Shown here piece after piece: positions 571 through 31,674 of a DNA stretch of 48,765 bases. A model generated the notes under the pieces. The model ran no database searches. It had not been told where the DNA came from and was given only the letters and a program-made list of their open reading frames with translations. The first letter of the stretch is position 1. Every line of letters starts with the position of its first letter. The position numbers and the translations under genes were made by a program. The DNA comes from Myxococcales bacterium (GTDB lineage: Bacteria; Myxococcota_A; UBA9160; UBA4427): the NCBI GenBank assembly GCA_022563535.1, contig JADFNE010000032.1, positions 1-48,765 of the forward strand, given 5' to 3'.

Positions 571-766
571 AGTAGCCTGACTGCAAGTTCAAAGTGCATT
601 AAAACTCGAGCCTATCACGAACTCCTCCAGGGCGTGCTGACCGGTCGGGCAGGCTAGGGCTCGAGTCAAATTGAACCGTGGTATTCTGCGAACGTATCTG
701 GCGAGTCAGCCGCGGCGCCAGGTTGCCGCCTGCCGCTGAACGCCAAACCGTTGGGCGGCAAACTTG
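571..766 (+). other. Intergenic leader with attC-like 3' arm before first paralog
   Basis: There is no gene here. An inverted repeat (ctcgagcc at 605-612, ggctcgag at 658-665) follows the Fic gene. The segment gagtcaaattgaaccgtg (663-680) recurs with one mismatch at 1763-1780, upstream of the second paralog. The 3' end, around 731-757, reads ccgctgaacgcc, then aaacc, then GTTGGGC (750-756). This matches the right arm of an integron attC site (consensus GTTRRRY), and the next ORF starts 10 nt later, as cassette ORFs commonly do. No complementary RYYYAAC left arm could be found, so this is called a half or decayed site. Confidence 0.5.
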
Positions 767-1239
767 ATGCTTGAAGACCTTGGAAATATCGCTGACCTGA
801 TCGCGGCGATTGCAACCATCGCAACTCTCGGGTACCTCGCGTTCCAGGTCAAACAAAATACGAAGGCCCTCCGGGGTTCGTCGGCTGAAACGGTCATGGA
901 GAGTGAAATCGCTGCCGTTGCATTGACTACTCAACACATCAACGTCTTTCGACGCGGCAATGACAACATTTCAGAGTTGAATGCTGATGAGAGGGCTGTG
1001 TATGACCAACTCATATTTATCGAAATCTCGCAAACCTGGTCCGCGTTCACTCAATATCAGAGCGGACTGATGAGTGAGGTCACGTTCGCAGCGTTTCGCA
1101 CTTCATGGGTACGCTCAATGAGGAACCCGGGTTTTCGAATCTCTTGGGCGGAACAAAAAAAATATTTCCGGAGGATTTTTGCCGATGCTTCGACGAATTG
1201 TCCGCTGCCAGCGAGAGTGCTGCCCCGCTTCCAGATTGA
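767..1239 (+). pseudogene. Membrane-anchored hypothetical protein, frameshifted at an A8 run (paralog of 1877-2347)
   Basis: The N-terminus (MLEDLGNIADLIAAIATIATLGYLAFQVKQNT) is a single membrane helix followed by a soluble domain. It is collinear with the protein at 1877-2347: YLAFQVKQNTK versus YLAFQIRQNTK, then shared spacing of ADERAVYDQL/DERAAYGYL and NPGFRISWAE/RPGFRQIWSE. At the run of eight A (1155-1162) the frame leaves the homology and would run on to 1318 with an unrelated tail. Re-reading one base restores IFPEDFCRCFDELSAASES up to a TGA at 1237-1239. This matches the paralog's WPKEFSQCLDEAVASSE and gives the same length (157 versus 156 residues). A base is therefore missing in the sequence, or the gene is genuinely broken, or it relies on -1 slippage. 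Start ATG 767 lies 10 nt after an attC-like core. Function unknown. Confidence 0.72.
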
Positions 1240-1329
1240 AGTCCGCGGATTCTCCGTGCGAATCAGTACCGGCGTGCAGTTTGATCGGCGTGCCCAGCAC
1301 TGGTCAAGGCAAGCTTAGGAGGACTAAAT

Positions 1330-1734
1330 ATGATTACAGGTCGGTGTGAATGCGGCAGCGTACAGTATCAAGTCGATGGCGAGATCAACGACTTCAGTCA
1401 CTGCCATTGCAGTCAGTGTCGACGGCTCCATGGTGCCGCCTTCGCGACGTACGCCGGTGTTGTACGCAACGAATTCTCCTTTCTATCGGGGCAGCAGGAT
1501 CTAACGAGGTATGGGTCATCACATGATCACACCCGTGTGTTTTGCCGCATCTGCGGGTCCAATATCCTGGTTGAACTCGATTTCGAACCGGAAGCCGTTT
1601 ACCTGGCAATGGGCACGGTAGACGGTGATCCAAAGTGTCCTCCCGCCTACCACATCTTTGTCGGCTCGAAGGCACCCTGGTACAACTTTGATGATTCGTC
1701 TGTGCGGCATGACACTTTTCCGGAGGATGAGTGA
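1330..1734 (+). CDS. GFA family (Gfa-like, CENP-V fold) zinc protein
   Basis: The 134-residue protein starts MITGRCECGSVQYQV. It carries paired Cys motifs for two zinc sites: C-x-C near residues 6-8, HCHCSQC near 25-31 and CRIC near 74-77. Full-length glutathione-dependent formaldehyde-activating (GFA) family proteins have this size and layout. Family members are named for S-hydroxymethylglutathione synthase, but most small homologues have no proven substrate. A strong AGGAGG at 1317-1322 sits 7 nt before ATG 1330, unlike the neighbouring ORFs. GFA proteins are frequent integron cassette cargo, which fits the surrounding core sites, but I see no complete attC directly after this gene. Family call firm; reaction not. 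Confidence 0.9.
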   Translation: MITGRCECGSVQYQVDGEINDFSHCHCSQCRRLHGAAFATYAGVVRNEFSFLSGQQDLTRYGSSHDHTRVFCRICGSNILVELDFEPEAVYLAMGTVDGDPKCPPAYHIFVGSKAPWYNFDDSSVRHDTFPEDE

Positions 1735-1876
1735 GCTGCCTGTCAGCCGACAACGACCAGCAGAGTCAAATTGATCCGTGTTACCGTTCTGGCGGCGCTG
1801 CAGTCCCAACGTTGGTGGTCAGCGCTAGTCGTTGCGGCTGAAACCCAGGCCGTGATGTGGCGCCGAAAGGAAATTG
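1735..1876 (+). other. Leader of second paralog, duplicated from 663-766
   Basis: This gap repeats gagtcaaattgatccgtg (1763-1780), found with one mismatch at 663-680. It also contains gcggctgaaacccaggccgt (1835-1854), which aligns with the attC-like arm before the first paralog but has lost the GTTGGGC core. A palindrome tcccaacgttgg lies at 1804-1815. Leader and gene therefore appear to have been duplicated together. An AAAGGA at 1866-1871 sits 5 nt from ATG 1877 and probably serves as the ribosome-binding site. Confidence 0.5.
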
Positions 1877-2347
1877 ATGAACTGGAACGCGGTAGCGGCC
1901 ATTTCCGAAGCGTTGGGCGCAGTGGGTGTGATCGTAACGGTGATTTACCTTGCGTTTCAAATTCGACAGAACACGAAGTCGATTCAGGGGGCTACTGAAC
2001 AGACCCTCATGAATGCAGAGGTGGACGTGTTCGGATTGTGGGCGCAGCACGCGAGTGTGGCTCGGCGCGGTGACGCTGATCTTGGTGATTTAGATCCAGA
2101 CGAGAGGGCGGCGTACGGGTATCTCGTGAGCGCGGAGATGTCCCAGCTGTATGGTGCATTCGTTCAGTACCAGCGAAAACTCATACCCGAATCTGTTTGG
2201 GTGGCGTATTTAAATAGTTGGCGGGACGTCGTCAATAGGCCGGGGTTCCGACAGATTTGGTCCGAAATTCAAACGAGCTGGCCGAAAGAATTCAGCCAGT
2301 GCCTCGACGAGGCCGTGGCGAGTTCGGAAGGGTCGCTCAATTGCTAG
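1877..2347 (+). CDS. Membrane-anchored hypothetical protein (intact paralog of 767-1239)
   Basis: The 156-residue protein has one N-terminal membrane helix (about residues 5-30, AISEALGAVGVIVTVIYLAFQIRQ) and a cytosolic helical domain. That domain has conserved features shared with the frameshifted copy upstream: Q-N-T-K after the helix, DERAAY, SQLYGAFVQYQ, and RPGFRQIW. Proteins with this layout are common hypotheticals in marine and environmental bacteria, and no activity is known to me. ATG 1877 is chosen over TTG 1874 because an AAAGGA precedes it. The stop codon TAG (2345-2347) overlaps a GTTAGGC core at 2347-2353, placing the gene at a cassette boundary. Confidence 0.75.
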   Translation: MNWNAVAAISEALGAVGVIVTVIYLAFQIRQNTKSIQGATEQTLMNAEVDVFGLWAQHASVARRGDADLGDLDPDERAAYGYLVSAEMSQLYGAFVQYQRKLIPESVWVAYLNSWRDVVNRPGFRQIWSEIQTSWPKEFSQCLDEAVASSEGSLNC

Positions 2348-2685: not shown

Positions 2686-2813
2686 GCCCAACATGCCGTT
2701 GCACCGGGCGGGCTCACTCTTGGCCGTCACTGAGCGTGGTACCATGCCAGCTCTTCTGGTCTTCAGTGTCGGTGGTAGATCGCCGCCAGCTGCTGAATGC
2801 CGATCCGTTGGGC
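2686..2813 (+). repeat. Integron attC recombination site (128 bp)
   Basis: The left core GCCCAAC (2686-2692) is the exact reverse complement of the right core GTTGGGC (2807-2813). Inside these, atgccgttgcaccgggcggg pairs imperfectly with cgccgccagctgctgaatgc, leaving unpaired bases of the kind that orient attC folding. The centre can form further stems around gtggtaccatgcc. Length, core consensus (RYYYAAC...GTTRRRY) and imperfect L boxes are all typical of attC. The next ORF begins 12 nt after the right core. This is the best evidence that 1-3330 is a cassette array. No tyrosine recombinase IntI gene is present in the window. Confidence 0.75.
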
Positions 2814-2825
2814 GGCCAGAAACCG

Positions 2826-3329
2826 ATGCGTCTCGCTTTGGCCATTGTCGCTGCGATCTTGAACCTGGCGGACGCAAGTCTGGCCAGTGCGTGCCGGTGC
2901 CTTCCAAACGACACGGTCGAGGCTCAGTACGAACGGGCCGAGCTGGTCTTTTTCGGTCGAGTCACCTTCCACAACGGCGCAGAGAGTCGCGAGACCCAGC
3001 GGCGGTTCTGGGAGTTCGAGGTGGAAGGTGTTTGGAAGGGTCCCGTTCAGCAGAAGATTCGGATCTACGCGCATTCACCCAAAAGCGGAGAATTCACTAG
3101 CTGCGACCGCGAGCTGGAGATCGGACAAATGTACCTCGTCTTCGCGAGTACGTTTCAGGGCTATCCCGGGCGTTTCCAGGCAGGCAAGTGCTCAGGAACC
3201 GTGGTGGGTGCCGACGCCATAGAAGCTCTTGGCGTGATCGGTGCCCCAACCCATCGGTTCTCAAGGAACCAGGACGAAGTTGGTAGCCGCGTCGTCGAAC
3301 ATCTGGATCGTAAGGCCGCTGTCGTTTGA
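2826..3329 (+). CDS. Secreted TIMP/netrin-like (NTR fold) protein
   Basis: ATG 2826 gives 167 residues. A signal peptide (MRLALAIVAAILNLADASLASA) is predicted to be cut just before CRCLPND, so the mature protein would begin Cys-x-Cys. The following YERAELVFFGRVTF, then VEGVWKGPVQQKIRIYAH and CDRELEIGQMYLVFA, follow the pattern of the tissue-inhibitor-of-metalloproteinase / netrin OB fold. In animal TIMPs the free N-terminal Cys binds the protease zinc; bacterial homologues are mostly uncharacterised. The gene lies 12 nt after an attC site, so it is probably cassette-borne. Its last 69 bases overlap the 3' end of the opposite-strand gene at 3261, so the C-terminus after about residue 140 may be read-through. 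Fold call good, function inferred. Confidence 0.7.
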   Translation: MRLALAIVAAILNLADASLASACRCLPNDTVEAQYERAELVFFGRVTFHNGAESRETQRRFWEFEVEGVWKGPVQQKIRIYAHSPKSGEFTSCDRELEIGQMYLVFASTFQGYPGRFQAGKCSGTVVGADAIEALGVIGAPTHRFSRNQDEVGSRVVEHLDRKAAVV

Positions 3330-4499
3330 GTGGACGATCACGATCTCGTCTATTCCGTCTTCGTCGAAGTCGATGGCGACGGGGACGACGTTTCCGTCGA
3401 AGTTGGCGAGTTGTGCGTCCTCGGCTGCCGTCAGGTAGCCCGAATCGAGGCCCGGGTTCTGCATCGGCGCGAGGTTTTGGTTGGCGTCGTCAAGGATCAA
3501 GACCTGGTCGGCGAGGGGGCGCTTGAAGGTGATGACGATCTCGTCCAGGCCGTCGTTGTCGAAGTCGCCGGAAGCGGTGTGGAGTTCGCCGTTGCCACCC
3601 GCACCGAGGATGTCCAGAGCGACTTGCATCACGCCCTTGGCTGATCCGGGGAGTGCGAAGTACTTGAAGCCAGTCGTGATGTCGTCCAGGATCTGGAGCT
3701 GGTTGTCCCCGCCGCTGCCCGAACTCACGATCAATTCCTGGTACCCGTCACCGTCGATGTCTCCGCAGGACACGTGGTTTTCTATGACGCGCGCGTAGCC
3801 GTCGAGGAAGTCCGCCCGCACTTTGATCGTTCTTTCGGAAATGCCGCCCGAGCCGTTGGGTCGCCGGTTTCGGATCAAGATTCGGCCGGATTCGCGGCGC
3901 ATGCGCTTGGATTTGGCATTGCTCAGCAGGTTGGTCAGCACGAGATCCACAACGCCGTCGCCCTCGAGGTCGCAGATCGTGTACTCGGTCCCGTAGGAGA
4001 TTTGATTCTTGATGTTCTTGAAGCTTTTGAACTCTTGGGGAAGAGCGTCAAAGGATCCGCTGCTGTCCTCTTCGGTGGCCACACCCATTACGCCCAGGGT
4101 GGCCGCTTCGATGGACATTTCTTCGGAAGTCATTGGCTCATCGGGCACTGCCGCGAGAACCAGCAGCGCATCGGAATACGGGGTCATGACCGCCATGTCA
4201 TCGTAGGCAGAGATTGAGATGAAGTTGTTCTGCGAATCTTCCAGGCTCAACGTGCTGCTCAGCACGCCACCGACCAGGTTGGGCATGCCGACGTCAATGT
4301 GCTGGTCGAAGACATCGGAGGTGGAGCCGACGTGAATCTTGTAGCCAGTGATGCTCGACTGCGCTGCGGGCGCCCATCCGACCGTCACCTCGACCACATT
4401 CGCGCTGGCGCTGGCCGCGGCAAAAGTGGCGCAACTCACAAGCACGATCGCGCGAGCGAGGTGTCGATAGGTTGCGAACGCATGCTGTCTGGCTTTCAT
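3261..4499 (-). CDS. Secreted calcium-binding FN3 / VCBS (FG-GAP) repeat protein
   Basis: From ATG 4499 the 412-residue product has a signal peptide (ARAIVLVSCATFAAASASA). An N-terminal fibronectin-III-like domain follows (VTVGWAPAAQSSITGYKIHVG), then FG-GAP/VCBS propeller blades. Each blade carries an EF-hand-like loop: DLEGDGVVDLVL, DIDGDGYQELIV, DFDNDGLDEIVI and DFDEDGIDEIVI. Such proteins are exported, calcium-stabilised and usually act in surface adhesion or binding. A GTG at 4547 would extend the N-terminus, but 4499 places the signal peptide properly. The region upstream holds a cluster of hairpins (4597-4691), and pckA terminates just before it. No enzymatic motif is seen. Confidence 0.8.
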   Translation of the reverse strand: MKARQHAFATYRHLARAIVLVSCATFAAASASANVVEVTVGWAPAAQSSITGYKIHVGSTSDVFDQHIDVGMPNLVGGVLSSTLSLEDSQNNFISISAYDDMAVMTPYSDALLVLAAVPDEPMTSEEMSIEAATLGVMGVATEEDSSGSFDALPQEFKSFKNIKNQISYGTEYTICDLEGDGVVDLVLTNLLSNAKSKRMRRESGRILIRNRRPNGSGGISERTIKVRADFLDGYARVIENHVSCGDIDGDGYQELIVSSGSGGDNQLQILDDITTGFKYFALPGSAKGVMQVALDILGAGGNGELHTASGDFDNDGLDEIVITFKRPLADQVLILDDANQNLAPMQNPGLDSGYLTAAEDAQLANFDGNVVPVAIDFDEDGIDEIVIVHSNDSGLTIQMFDDAATNFVLVP

Positions 4500-4596
4500 G
4501 CTCGATTCATCGGGAGCGAGCCAGACTGCAAAGGTGATCTTCCTCACAAGTGCTGTGAAAGATTCACCTAAATCCGAAAATTACCCCGGGGAGTGT

Positions 4597-4745: not shown

Positions 4746-6287
4746 CTAGTTGAACTTTACCTCGTTGTTCGAAAACAATTGAGCAAGCTTGCGCGCCGCT
4801 TCGTCGTAGGCCGCGGAATCCGCCCAGGTATTTTTCGGGTTGAGAATCTCGGTCGGGACGTTTGCGCAAGTCGTCGGGACGCTGAGCCCGAAGAAGGGGT
4901 CTGTCATGACTTCGGCGCCAGCGAGACTGCCGTCGTGGATCGCGTCGATGATGGCCCGGGTCCAGGCGAGCTTCATGCGCTTACCGACTCCGTAGCCACC
5001 GCCGCTCCAGCCCGTGTTAACCAGCCAGGCGTGGGTGTTCTGGGCCTCCATCTTCTTGGCGAGCATTTCGCCGTAGACCTTGGGGTGGCGCACCAGGAAC
5101 GCGGCACCGAAGCAGGCGGAGAAGGTCGCCTCGGGTTCGGTGACGCCCATCTCCGTGCCCGCGACCTTGGCGGTGTAGCCGGCCAGAAACTGCTGCATTG
5201 CTTGTTCGGAGGAGAGGCGGCTCACCGGGGGGAGCACGCCAAAGGCATCGCAGGTCAAGAAGATGATGTTGCTCGGATGCCCGCCGATACAGGGTACGAC
5301 GACATTCGGAATGAAGTCGATCGGGTAGGAGGCCCGGGTGTTGACGGTCAGCGAATAGTCGCTGTAGTCGACCACGCGCGTGGCAGCGTCGAACACGACG
5401 TTCTCGAGCACGGTGCCAAAGCGGATGGCGCGGAAGATGTCTGGCTCCTCTTCCTCGCTCAGATCAATTGCCTTCGCGTAGCAGCCGCCTTCAATGTTGA
5501 AGATGCCTTCTTCGCTCCAGCAGTGTTCGTCGTCGCCGATCAAGAATCGCTTGGGGTCTGCAGAGAGCGTCGTCTTGCCCGTGCCCGAAAGGCCGAAGAA
5601 GATCGAGACATCCTTGTCTGCGCCCATATTGGCGCTGCAATGCATGGAAAGCACGCCTTTGTCGGGCATCAGATAGTGCATGATCGAGAATACGCCCTTC
5701 TTCATCTCGCCAGCGTACTGCGTGCCGAGAATGACGAACTCGCTCTTTTCGAAGTTGATCGCCACGCTGGCATCAGACGTCACGCCCTCGACTGTGGTGT
5801 CGGCGGACTGCGCGCCGGCGTTGAAGATGACGTAGTCGGGTTCGCCAAAGTTCTCGAGTTCAGAGGCGTTCGGACGCATCAACATGTTGTGCATGAAGAG
5901 TGCGTGATAGGGGCGCGAACAGATGACGCGAATGGAGAGTCGGTAGCGGGGGTCCCAACCCGCCCAACCGTCGACCACATAGAGACGTTCCTGGGCATTC
6001 AGATAGTCGATGGCGATGCGGCGATTTTTTTCAAAGGAGTCGGGGGACAGAGGAATGTTGACGTCGCCCCACCAAATGTTGTCTCGGCTGGTCGGGTGGT
6101 CGACGATGCGTTTGTCCTTGGGACTGCGACCTGTCTTGGCGCCAGAGATCGCGACCATCGCGCCGCTCGAAGTCAACGAACTTCCGTCATACGCAGTGCC
6201 GTGTTCGTAGAGTTCTGCGGGGGAGAGGTTGCGGAGGATCTCCTTGGACGTGATTCCGTACTGATTGAGCTCAATGCTCAGTGCCAT
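4746..6287 (-). CDS. pckA: Phosphoenolpyruvate carboxykinase (ATP)
   Basis: The 513-residue protein catalyses oxaloacetate + ATP to phosphoenolpyruvate + CO2 + ADP in the cytosol, the entry step of gluconeogenesis. It has the ATP-type kinase-1a P-loop GLSGTGKTTLS (about residues 232-242). Upstream is the oxaloacetate-binding region with SGAKTGRSPKDKRIV, and the kinase-2 / metal region HCWSEEGIFNIEGGCYAK lies just after the P-loop. Length is near the usual 520-540. ATG 6287 is the natural start. Transcription ends at the hairpin at 4662-4691. It stands alone, with no partner in an operon. Confidence 0.97.
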   Translation of the reverse strand: MALSIELNQYGITSKEILRNLSPAELYEHGTAYDGSSLTSSGAMVAISGAKTGRSPKDKRIVDHPTSRDNIWWGDVNIPLSPDSFEKNRRIAIDYLNAQERLYVVDGWAGWDPRYRLSIRVICSRPYHALFMHNMLMRPNASELENFGEPDYVIFNAGAQSADTTVEGVTSDASVAINFEKSEFVILGTQYAGEMKKGVFSIMHYLMPDKGVLSMHCSANMGADKDVSIFFGLSGTGKTTLSADPKRFLIGDDEHCWSEEGIFNIEGGCYAKAIDLSEEEEPDIFRAIRFGTVLENVVFDAATRVVDYSDYSLTVNTRASYPIDFIPNVVVPCIGGHPSNIIFLTCDAFGVLPPVSRLSSEQAMQQFLAGYTAKVAGTEMGVTEPEATFSACFGAAFLVRHPKVYGEMLAKKMEAQNTHAWLVNTGWSGGGYGVGKRMKLAWTRAIIDAIHDGSLAGAEVMTDPFFGLSVPTTCANVPTEILNPKNTWADSAAYDEAARKLAQLFSNNEVKFN

Positions 6288-12269: not shown

Positions 12270-13241
12270 TCAGAGTCGCGGCAGCACCTTGTCGGCTATG
12301 AGTTCGAGGCTCGCCCAGGCAATCTCCGGCGGCAGCCCGCCACACAGTGGCTGCAACATCAGGATCTGGTTCTTCTTTACGTAGTCGACCGCTTCGTCGG
12401 GTGTAAAGATCTGATACGCACCCTGCTGCGCGCGCAACTCGTCGACGGTCTGCGCGGTTGACTTCGAGACGGAGCGCGCGCTCCCCAACCACTTGGCGTA
12501 CATCTGCGCGTCGTGAAGCATATGCGGACCGATCTCGGCCCAGGCGCGATCGAGATCGTCTGCGACAAACGCGGTCATGACCAGGCCCGCCTGGGGGTTC
12601 AGACAAATGCCGGGTTCGACGCCCTGGGCCTCGCATTCTTCGCGATAGATCGTTTCGAGTTCGGGATTCAGTCCCTGGGCCAGCATCCCCATCCCAAAAC
12701 GGGCGGCTCGCCGTGCGGCCGCTCGGGTGTTGCCGGCCATCAGCATGCCCGGCCCCCCAACCGTTGCGGGTTTGGGCGTGACCCGCACCGTGCGCCCCTG
12801 GTATTCAAAGGGTTCCCCCGTCCAGGCGCTTCGCATGGCTTCGAGGGATTCGTCCATGCGCTTGCCCCGCCCCTTGAACGAGCGGCCGAACTGGTCGAAC
12901 TCCCGCTCCAGATAGCCGACGCCGGTCGCGTAGGTGACGCGTCCTCCGCTCAGCAGGTCGAGTACGGCCATGTCTTCTGCCAGGCGCAACGGATCGTGAA
13001 GGGGAACGATGAGCGCGCCGATCTGGATCCCGATCGTCTTCGTGCGTCCGACCATCGCGCTGGCGAGAATCAGCGGTGAAGGCAGGTAGCCGTCCTCGGA
13101 AGCGTGGTGTTCGGAGATCACGATCTGAACACAGCCGTGCTCCTCGCCCCAGATCGCCATATCGAGGGCCGCCCGATACAAATCTTGGCTGCTGGCCGAA
13201 CTAAAGGCCGGCGCTCGCATGTCGAAGCGCATCAAGTACAC
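12270..13241 (-). CDS. LLM-class (luciferase-like) flavin-dependent oxidoreductase
   Basis: The protein is a TIM-barrel luciferase-like monooxygenase or F420-dependent oxidoreductase. Signatures include ISEHHASEDGYLPSPLILA, where the EHH motif is typical of the alkanal-monooxygenase subgroup. DLLSGGRVTYATGVGYLEREF and RVTPKPATVGGPGMLMAGNT follow. GTG 13241 is chosen because gagggga lies 7 nt upstream, while ATG 13232 (MRFDMRAPAF) is the alternative; the longer frame to 13331 adds a non-homologous tail. It converges with the acyl-CoA synthetase at 12232 and is divergent from the epoxide hydrolase. Cofactor (FMN or F420) not determinable here. Confidence 0.9.
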   Translation of the reverse strand: MYLMRFDMRAPAFSSASSQDLYRAALDMAIWGEEHGCVQIVISEHHASEDGYLPSPLILASAMVGRTKTIGIQIGALIVPLHDPLRLAEDMAVLDLLSGGRVTYATGVGYLEREFDQFGRSFKGRGKRMDESLEAMRSAWTGEPFEYQGRTVRVTPKPATVGGPGMLMAGNTRAAARRAARFGMGMLAQGLNPELETIYREECEAQGVEPGICLNPQAGLVMTAFVADDLDRAWAEIGPHMLHDAQMYAKWLGSARSVSKSTAQTVDELRAQQGAYQIFTPDEAVDYVKKNQILMLQPLCGGLPPEIAWASLELIADKVLPRL

Positions 13242-13456
13242 AGGAGTTCCCCTCTTTGGTTCCGGTTTGGGCCGGCCCGCGGTCGGGAGTGTTTTTTCGA
13301 ACCTCCAGCGTACCGAGCCTACCCGAACCATGCCTGAGCAGCCGAAACGCGAGTGCCCCCGGGAGAAAGGTCACTCCTGGGCGATTGCATTGGGCGCCGG
13401 CTAGCGCGTAGACTTCTGCTCCTGAGCCGAAAGAGAAGCTCGCAAGAAGGAGCAAC

Positions 13457-14596
13457 ATGTCGAACGAAATCAGACCCTTCAAAATCGAAACTTCGGACGC
13501 AGAACTCGATGATTTGCGTCGGCGCCTGAGCGCGACCCGCTGGCCCGAGGCCGAAACCGTCGACGACTGGTCCCAGGGGATCCCTCTCTCCTACGTACAG
13601 GAAGTCTGCGCCTACTGGGGCGAGAAATACGATTGGCGCGCGCGCGAGGCGCTGCTCAATCAATGGCCGCAGTTCAAGACCGAGATCGACGGTCTTGACA
13701 TTCACTTCGTTCACGTGCGCTCGCCCCACGAAGATGCGATGCCGCTCGTGATCACCCACGGCTGGCCGGGATCGATCGTAGAATTCCAGAAGATCATTGG
13801 CCCCCTGACCGATCCCACTTCCTTTGGCGGCCAGGCGAGTGATGCCTTTCATGTCGTCTGCCCTTCCATGCCGGGTTATGGCTTCTCGGACAAACCCGCA
13901 ACAACCGGGATGAGCGTCGACAAGATTGGCGAAACTTGGGCCAAGCTGATGGCGCGCCTGGGCTACGACCGTTACGCAGCGCAAGGGGGCGACTGGGGAT
14001 CGATGGTGACGAGTGCCCTCGGGATGCAGGACACCGAGCACTGCCTCGGCATCCACCTCAACATGCCGATCGTGGGCCCCGACCCCAGCACCATGAACGA
14101 CTTGACCGAACGCGAAAAAGCGGCGTTGGCCTCGATGAAGCACTACGAGCAGCAGGGCTCGGGTTATTCGAAGCAGCAAGCAACCCGGCCCCAGACCCTG
14201 GGTTATGGGCTGACGGATTCACCCTCCGGACAGGCGGCGTGGATCCTCGAAAAATTTCACGCCTGGACCGACTGCAACGGCCATCCCGAAAACATACTCA
14301 GCCGCGATGAACTCCTCGACAATGTGATGTTGTATTGGCTGCCCGGAACCGGTGCTTCCTCGGGCCGACTCTATTGGGAAAGTTTTGCGAGTGTGAAAAT
14401 GGATGAAATTTCGATCCCGGTGGGTTGCAGCATTTTCCCGCACGAGATTTTTCGCTGTTCGCGACGTTGGGCGGAGAAACGCTTCAAGAACATCATCCAC
14501 TGGAACGAGTTGGAAGTTGGCGGGCACTTCGCGGCCTTCGAACAACCCGAGTTGTTCATCGAAGAAATCCGCACCTGCTTCCGCAATCTGCGCTGA
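13457..14596 (+). CDS. Epoxide hydrolase (EHN-type alpha/beta hydrolase)
   Basis: The 379-residue enzyme has the N-terminal EHN domain (FKIETSDAELDDLRRRLSAT...W) followed by an alpha/beta-hydrolase core. The oxyanion motif HGWPGS is at residues 101-106 and the nucleophile elbow GGDWGS has Asp at 179. A C-terminal catalytic histidine lies in GGHFAAFEQP. It hydrolyses epoxides to diols through a covalent ester on that aspartate, and microsomal-type members share this layout. An AAGAAGGAG precedes ATG 13457. The substrate could come from the monooxygenases elsewhere in the window, which is inference. Confidence 0.93.
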   Translation: MSNEIRPFKIETSDAELDDLRRRLSATRWPEAETVDDWSQGIPLSYVQEVCAYWGEKYDWRAREALLNQWPQFKTEIDGLDIHFVHVRSPHEDAMPLVITHGWPGSIVEFQKIIGPLTDPTSFGGQASDAFHVVCPSMPGYGFSDKPATTGMSVDKIGETWAKLMARLGYDRYAAQGGDWGSMVTSALGMQDTEHCLGIHLNMPIVGPDPSTMNDLTEREKAALASMKHYEQQGSGYSKQQATRPQTLGYGLTDSPSGQAAWILEKFHAWTDCNGHPENILSRDELLDNVMLYWLPGTGASSGRLYWESFASVKMDEISIPVGCSIFPHEIFRCSRRWAEKRFKNIIHWNELEVGGHFAAFEQPELFIEEIRTCFRNLR

Positions 14597-30883: not shown

Positions 30884-30965
30884 TTTTGGGGCCGATCAGT
30901 GAGGTTGGTCACAGTGTGACTGCGGCCAGCGGAGCTCGGACGAACCTGTCGTTCTGATGGCTCCT

Positions 30966-31057
30966 CGAAAAGAGCAAACCCAGCGAAAGCTGGGGACGCA
31001 AAGCCAGTGCCCTATTTCGGAAAACGCTTCCGAGCGGGTCGAACGGCTACCGAAGGG
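30966..31057 (+). ncRNA. Cyclic di-GMP-I (GEMM) riboswitch
   Basis: The aptamer shows the GEMM-I conserved blocks in order: agcaaaccc, a gcGAAAgc tetraloop hairpin, ggggacgcaaagcc, a variable second hairpin, and ggctaccgaagg closing P1. Its 3' end runs into the ggagc ribosome-binding site (31055-31059) of the lytic transglycosylase whose ATG is 31066. Ligand binding can therefore directly affect translation start. The sign of regulation cannot be fixed from sequence, and no terminator stem with a T-run is visible. Confidence 0.93.
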
Positions 31058-31065
31058 AGCACGCC

Positions 31066-31674
31066 ATGACGAGCGAGCGCAAGCAACACACCCTGATGCT
31101 GGTTCTTCTGATTCCACTTCTGGTCTCCGCAGGGACCCCGCCCCCAGTTGTTCTCGAAGCACGAGAGTTCGTTCCGATACCCCCGCCACACTATGTAGAG
31201 GTGAGAGACTTTCTCGCGTCTCGTCGCACTCGGCTCCCCGATTCGGAAATCAAAGTTTTGACCCGTACGATTCTCGACGAAGCGCGCCGAAGTGGCATCG
31301 AGCCGCGTTTGATCCTCGGCTTGATCCACGTCGAGAGCAGCGGAAACTCGAGGGCCGTATCCCGGGTGGGTGCGTTGGGTCTGATGCAGTTGCGTCCCGA
31401 CACCGCTGCCGCCATGGCGCGAGAACTCGAGATTCAATGGGATGGGCCGGAGAGTCTTTTCGATCCCAATCTCAATGTTCGCCTGGGTGTGCGTTATCTG
31501 ACCCGATTGATTGACCGGTTCGGCGATATCGATGTCGCCCTTGCCGCCTACAACTTTGGACCCACCCGCATCGCCCGGGCGATCCGCCGAGGGCGTCCGG
31601 TGCCGGTTCGTTACTCCGACAAGGTGCACCGCGCATACCTTGCAACTACAGTTTCAACGACAGCCTTGATCTAG
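31066..31674 (+). CDS. Soluble lytic transglycosylase (SLT domain)
   Basis: The 202-residue enzyme has a signal sequence (LMLVLLIPLLVSAG) and one SLT goose-lysozyme-like domain. Catalytic Glu is E90 in GLIHVESSGNSRAVS, followed by GALGLMQLRPDTA, then GVRYLTRLIDRFGDIDVALAAYNFGP. It cleaves peptidoglycan between MurNAc and GlcNAc with 1,6-anhydro product, in the periplasm. Its mRNA begins with a c-di-GMP riboswitch, linking wall remodelling to surface or motility control, for example for assembly of appendages. It converges with alkB 19 nt away. Confidence 0.94.
   Translation: MTSERKQHTLMLVLLIPLLVSAGTPPPVVLEAREFVPIPPPHYVEVRDFLASRRTRLPDSEIKVLTRTILDEARRSGIEPRLILGLIHVESSGNSRAVSRVGALGLMQLRPDTAAAMARELEIQWDGPESLFDPNLNVRLGVRYLTRLIDRFGDIDVALAAYNFGPTRIARAIRRGRPVPVRYSDKVHRAYLATTVSTTALI

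Follow-up and report, generated by a model that had tools for sequence, protein, structure and literature searches.

Can a bacterial gene lying just behind an integron attC site encode an exported inhibitor that works like the animal TIMPs? The question is raised by an open reading frame (ORF) at 2826..3329 on the plus strand (167 aa; ATG at 2826, stop 3327-3329 counted in) of contig JADFNE010000032.1 from a Myxococcales bacterium, whose whole stretch of 48,765 nucleotides is referred to below as the window. An initial annotation of this DNA had proposed a signal peptide cut just before a CRC motif, a TIMP/netrin-type fold and a free N-terminal cysteine that would chelate the zinc of a metalloprotease. 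Our analysis points to an exported TIMP-like protein, encoded at the border of a decayed integron, in which the first cysteine is probably paired with another cysteine and any action on a protease would take a different chemical route.

A bacterial family with a predicted TIMP-type fold

The window protein alone has no match in Pfam, NCBIfam or the PDB sequences. In a protein search at E<=0.001, 31 of 377 sampled phylum genomes, own genome included, contain relatives; the closest come from the same genus (G002, 48% identity; G001, 47%), and the third genus mate, G003, has no TIMP-like gene in this search. With a profile built from 27 family sequences (A2), family members are found in 85 of the 377 genomes at E<=1e-5, with just one in the own genome. 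A scan of genome contigs with the single protein gave no relative. The Pfam TIMP model (PF00965) exceeds its curated cut-off in 10 of the 377, so that most of the family escapes it. The window gene clusters with those of G001 and G002 in a tree (support 99/92) and looks native to the genus. Its frame is open across the whole domain, and all 14 invariant or near-invariant family residues are kept. An ORF of at least this length arose in 4 of 2000 base shuffles (587 nt); the family relatives are stronger evidence of gene status than this shuffle test. A known phage or plasmid gene was also considered and rejected, with no tblastn match in phages or plasmids at E 0.01 and no relative in a scan of viral contigs.

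The link to TIMPs comes from profiles and from the predicted fold. The A2 profile aligns with TIMP-2 (2tmp) at E=8.8e-12, with Cys1 on TIMP residue 1, and the PDB sequences below E 0.001, 13 in number, are without exception TIMPs that align from their own residue 1, while agrin is found at E 0.34. A 14-member profile, which omits 13 of the 27 rows, including the two from G030 and G303, where Pfam TIMP exceeds its cut-off at the same place, reaches TIMP at E 1.1e-7. An AlphaFold model of the mature domain, made from five sequences, has a pLDDT of 83.7 and a pTM of 0.81. Foldseek with this model places two TIMP-2 chains and one TIMP-1 chain on top, just the first two at E<0.001. In VIA-align, the model superposes on N-TIMP-3 with Z 12.1 (110 residues, root-mean-square deviation 3.1; model residue 1 on chain residue 1) and on TIMP-1 with Z 12.0 (109 residues, deviation 2.7); agrin NtA, the PCOLCE1 NTR domain and meteorin score 9.2, 9.1 and 8.8. 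The predicted model has the OB-type fold of N-TIMP. From the model, the fold comparison and the cysteine covariation described below, the TIMP-fold domain is placed at 2892..3266 (+; mature residues 1-125, with Cys1, Cys3, Cys71 and Cys100). Sequence and model together make a homologous TIMP-type fold and export very probable, as the initial annotation had suggested.

The mature N-terminus and its cysteines

The protein begins with MRLALAIVAAILNLADASLASA followed directly by CRC (residues 23-25). A signal peptide is predicted from the sequence and the family pattern at 2826..2891 (+; residues 1-22), with ASA directly before Cys1. The (-3,-1) rule for signal peptidase cut sites, applied by eye, allows two cuts in the window protein, after residue 17 (ADA, before S) and after residue 22 (ASA, before C). 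For residue counts across the family, 105 matched stretches were reduced to 81 by removal of identical strings and then to 78 usable rows, 3 rows gapped at a cysteine column being set aside; the rows derive from the search loci and from 40 places hand-picked among the A2 matches, with most weaker matches left out, and two of them (both G207) are near-copies. The cut after residue 22 is favoured because the family conserves Ala at -3 (70/78) and at -1 (71/78) and because, of the 70 rows with Cys1, 67 have A-x-A-type residues directly ahead of it. Judged by this pattern, the mature protein most likely starts at Cys1; the signal peptide, the cut just before CRC and export, all parts of the earlier proposal, are supported as predictions. 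No C-terminal anchor was found in the window protein; the MYXO-CTERM model of NCBIfam, present in 8 of the 27 family members, does not match there.

The mature window protein has four cysteines. Cys1 and Cys71 are both present in 70 of the 78 rows and both absent in 8, and no row has one alone; in the tree, the pair was lost in a single clade of five rows and at three other places. Because the two positions agree in 78 of 78 rows, a Cys1-Cys71 disulfide is predicted, in the TIMP layout. A Cys3-Cys100 disulfide is predicted as well, with less variation as a test, since both residues are present in 77 of the 78 rows and hardly vary; the corresponding TIMP bonds are Cys1-Cys70/72 and Cys3-Cys99/101. 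The third N-domain disulfide of TIMP-1 joins Cys13 and Cys124; given four cysteines in the mature window protein, its equivalent is absent. Cys1 is thus probably not free. The zinc ligands of TIMP-2 are the terminal amine and the carbonyl of Cys-1, not its thiol, according to the excerpted text of PMC3779175, which also names Cys-72 and Cys-101. This zinc geometry and the Cys1/Cys71 covariation both speak against a free Cys1 thiol as zinc ligand, and the corresponding claim of the initial annotation is not supported.

One group within the family stands apart. A clade from a single family, f17 (L036, L038, L136, L138, L139), has TSC for CSC, is without Cys71 and keeps the AxA before that position; its members are TIMP-like proteins that lost the predicted Cys1 disulfide.

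Does the protein bind a protease?

We tentatively propose the following mechanism. The product would be an exported, soluble protein of TIMP-type (NTR/OB-type) fold, most likely cut by signal peptidase I before Cys1. The Cys1-Cys71 and Cys3-Cys100 disulfides would pin the new N-terminus to the domain and so form a stiff ridge, which could be pushed into a protease cleft, the enzyme being secreted or located in the envelope and a metalloprotease the leading candidate; there, the terminal amine and carbonyl of Cys1, not the thiol, would meet the zinc. The gene itself would belong natively to the genus and form, at present, the final 3'-truncated member of a chromosomal integron in decay. Computation supports the family, the fold, the pairing of cysteines, the AxA ahead of Cys1 and the position at the array border, whereas the precise cut, export, disulfide bonding and a protease target are inferences. 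For this whole chain, from export to the integron border, we see somewhat less than an even chance. Parts of the animal ridge recur in the family: among the 70 Cys1-bearing rows, residue 2 is Ser or Thr in 49, the SAxC loop at Cys71 is present as in TIMP-2 in 33, and 30 have both. M10-type matches occur in 4/4 genomes of the genus, and in G001 a matrixin (Peptidase_M10, E 1e-8; L065:9622-10929, minus strand) lies approximately 3.2 kb from the TIMP-like gene and is a candidate natural target; the own genome's M10 enzyme is at G000:C73:5613-6020.

Several observations weigh against this reading. At residue 2, Arg is found in the window protein and Glu, Asp, Glu and Val in its four nearest relatives; the window protein also has EFTSC where the SAxC loop would be. 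In two of these relatives (G352 and G308), the residues before Cys1 are unfit for a cut there. Eight of the 78 rows are without Cys1 altogether. Pfam TIMP leaves the window protein unmatched, and a profile of the five closest sequences alone finds no TIMP and no PDB chain, so that the protein's TIMP link runs via the wider family and the fold. The metzincin motif HExxHxxGxx[HD] is absent from window ORFs above 100 aa, and M10 enzymes also occur in G003, which lacks a TIMP-like gene. The same motif has 3 matches in a scan of 112 loci (435.6 kb; the set contains duplicate places and also some loci that lack a TIMP-like gene), and a single G001 gene, present in two overlapping loci, accounts for two of them; this is no evidence of general metzincin linkage. 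As several defining TIMP features fail, we file the window protein as TIMP-like, not as a TIMP, and it may still work like one. Binding of a protease cleft by this particular protein is possible but rather doubtful, and inhibition is no more than a plausible hypothesis.

A truncated gene at the probable border of a decayed integron

The ATG lies 12 nt after the R' box of an attC-type site at 2686..2813 (+; 128 bp), as noted initially, with perfect outer boxes (R'' GCCCAAC at 2686-2692, R' GTTGGGC at 2807-2813). When the genome's DNA is searched with this site and then scanned for the R' box, the kindred attC sites number eight, four on contig C97, one each on C52 and C70, and two in the window, and an ORF starts 7-31 nt past each of the eight. 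The other site in the window is represented by its 3' half at 706..759 (+), which is 76% identical over 54 nt to 2763-2816. Rfam has no attC match in the window, and the 2686-2813 site folds no better than dinucleotide shuffles (z -0.38); as shuffles fold as well, the attC call rests on the boxes and the related copies, not on folding energy. Beside the four sites on C97 is a decayed integrase (G000:C97:5438-5761, minus strand), a 107-aa ORF with an IntI-like C-terminus behind an unrelated hydrophobic start, which scores 117 bits over 73 positions of TIGR02249, where the cut-off is 265.

Upstream of the TIMP-like gene, the array holds four further ORFs on the plus strand: the last part of a Fic domain, truncated where the contig begins (10..570); an ORF without Pfam match whose start lies 10 nt past the R' box of 750-756 (767..1318); a member of the GFA (glutathione-dependent formaldehyde-activating) family (1330..1734); and a second ORF without Pfam match (1874..2347), which by eye looks like a paralogue of 767-1318. 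Both ORFs of this last pair open with a membrane-type stretch and then QNTK (by eye), and are possibly cassette-borne paralogues.

Downstream, no candidate box pair for an attC was found between 2814 and 5200. Family homology stops near residue 147 (approximately position 3266), where relatives end at or near ...HRFER, and the window frame continues for 20 read-through codons (3267..3326, +), antisense to an FG-GAP repeat gene (3261..4547, -). The latter lies on the chromosomal side of the array border, convergent with the TIMP-like ORF, and its C-terminus looks intact beside that of G003. Since relatives stop at HRFER while the window frame runs into the FG-GAP gene, the natural stop and the gene's own attC were probably lost in a rearrangement. 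A PEPCK-like gene (4746..6287, -; this and the following gene names were assigned by eye) is the synteny anchor with the three genus mates. In G001, G002 and G003, SDR/CaiB relatives are found near the PEPCK gene (in G001, the SDR gene ends at L094:12465 and PEPCK spans 12562-14094). In the own genome, PEPCK and FG-GAP lie in the window, and SDR and CaiB-type genes beside the integrase remnant on C97. Because SDR-CaiB and PEPCK lie near each other in the genus mates, synteny suggests that the separate contigs C97 and C32 (the window's contig) are most plausibly opposite borders of a single integron inserted at this locus. None of the stretches retrieved from the three genus mates contains the exact R' box string.

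In both G001 and G002, the TIMP-like gene and PEPCK are on different contigs; the gene was probably drawn into the array and is less likely to have been left beside it. That it is the last element of the array is highly probable, and the locus is best explained as the distal border of a chromosomal integron in decay, with the gene as its final, 3'-truncated element. The cassette context proposed initially is thus retained for the attC just upstream and the integron setting, and corrected in that the gene ends the array truncated and without its own attC. Elsewhere in the window, a c-di-GMP-I riboswitch (30963-31054, +; 64.7 bits, above the gathering score) lies 11 nt before an ORF at 31066-31674 that, by eye, looks like a lytic transglycosylase.

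Alternative explanations

The same domain might serve no inhibitory purpose at all. An exported TIMP-fold (NTR-type) domain with structural disulfides could bind a protein or polymer at the envelope or surface, and agrin NtA, the PCOLCE1 NTR domain and meteorin, NTR domains without protease inhibition, also align with the model. The ridge residues are not kept in the window subgroup, two close relatives seemingly have residues before Cys1, and the Cys1-Cys71 pair is lost in 8 of 78 members, all of which would suit a scaffold. However, TIMPs score approximately 3 Z units above the other NTR domains, no other PDB sequences match the family profile at E<0.001, and a plain scaffold would not call for the AxA that directly precedes Cys1 in 67 of 70 rows. 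We give this explanation a real chance, if not quite an even one.

A gene at such a border might also simply be decaying and have no present function, as a fragment of a dead integron. The read-through codons that replace the natural stop, the reduction of the integrase to a C-terminal remnant and the lack of an evident ribosome-binding site before the ATG (by eye) fit this idea, but a fully open domain frame with its 14 invariant or near-invariant residues makes it unlikely. Far less probable is a lipoprotein. Cys1 directly follows a small residue, and the Listeria Tim protein has a lipobox, whereas related Firmicutes have signal peptidase I-type signal peptides instead (excerpts of PMC8235301). 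Against this, the lipobox pattern, with Leu, Val or Ile at -3, is found in none of the 78 rows, Ala being the residue there in 70, and a second anchor is unlikely in the 8 of 27 members with MYXO-CTERM; the lipoprotein explanation is rejected.

Wider reading and comparison with known systems

Beyond the exported TIMP-like ridge protein proposed here, a broader and speculative reading, which we consider improbable at present, is that Myxococcota hold a large overlooked branch of TIMPs that keeps the TIMP working end (a free amine on a Cys1 locked by its disulfide, with CSC and the SAxC ridge) and blocks metzincins in the same way as the animal proteins, and that the window gene, drawn into an integron, is shifting its target, as the change at residue 2 suggests for its lineage. 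If true, animal TIMPs would be descendants of exported bacterial inhibitors or would have a common ancestor with them. Most work on TIMPs treats them as animal proteins, and a bacterial family this near to TIMP-2 (E approximately 1e-11), for which matching first two disulfides and a signal cut right before Cys1 are predicted, makes the age of amine-zinc inhibition relative to animals directly testable. In addition, the integron copy suggests that a TIMP-like gene can enter a gene-capture element, and four-cysteine, one-domain relatives could provide small scaffolds for metalloprotease inhibitor work.

Compared with the N-domain of animal TIMPs (PF00965), the window protein has the same predicted fold (Z 12.1), a CxC N-terminus on TIMP residue 1 and, in almost identical positions (1, 3, 71 and 100, with Cys-72 and Cys-101 in TIMP-2; PMC3779175), the four cysteines that in TIMPs form the first two disulfides. 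Unlike animal TIMPs, it is without the third N-domain disulfide and, as the ORF ends soon after the N-type domain, without the C-terminal domain of three disulfides; it also has Arg for Ser/Thr at residue 2 and no Pfam TIMP match. Other NTR domains (agrin NtA, PCOLCE1, the C-terminal domains of complement C3/C5, meteorin) have the same broad fold at Z approximately 7-9, weaker than TIMPs.

Our search of open-licence literature, a scope that gives no proof of absence, found no bacterial TIMP-like protein besides that of the Listeria paper (PMC8235301), and the excerpts of two animal TIMP papers (PMC10755359, PMC4807446) contain no mention of bacterial TIMPs. By its description in part of PMC8235301, the Listeria Tim of the mtz-tim pair is likewise bacterial and exported, with a TIMP-like fold and a mobile-element link; it differs in having an adjacent metzincin gene, for which the window offers no HExxHxxGxx[HD] motif in ORFs above 100 aa. 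Set beside chromosomal integron cassettes, the TIMP-like gene differs in that no attC follows it, the integrase is just a 107-aa ORF with an IntI C-terminus and the array is split over contigs, but it shares with them a start 12 nt past an attC, and its genome also carries kindred attC sites and a remnant of an integrase.
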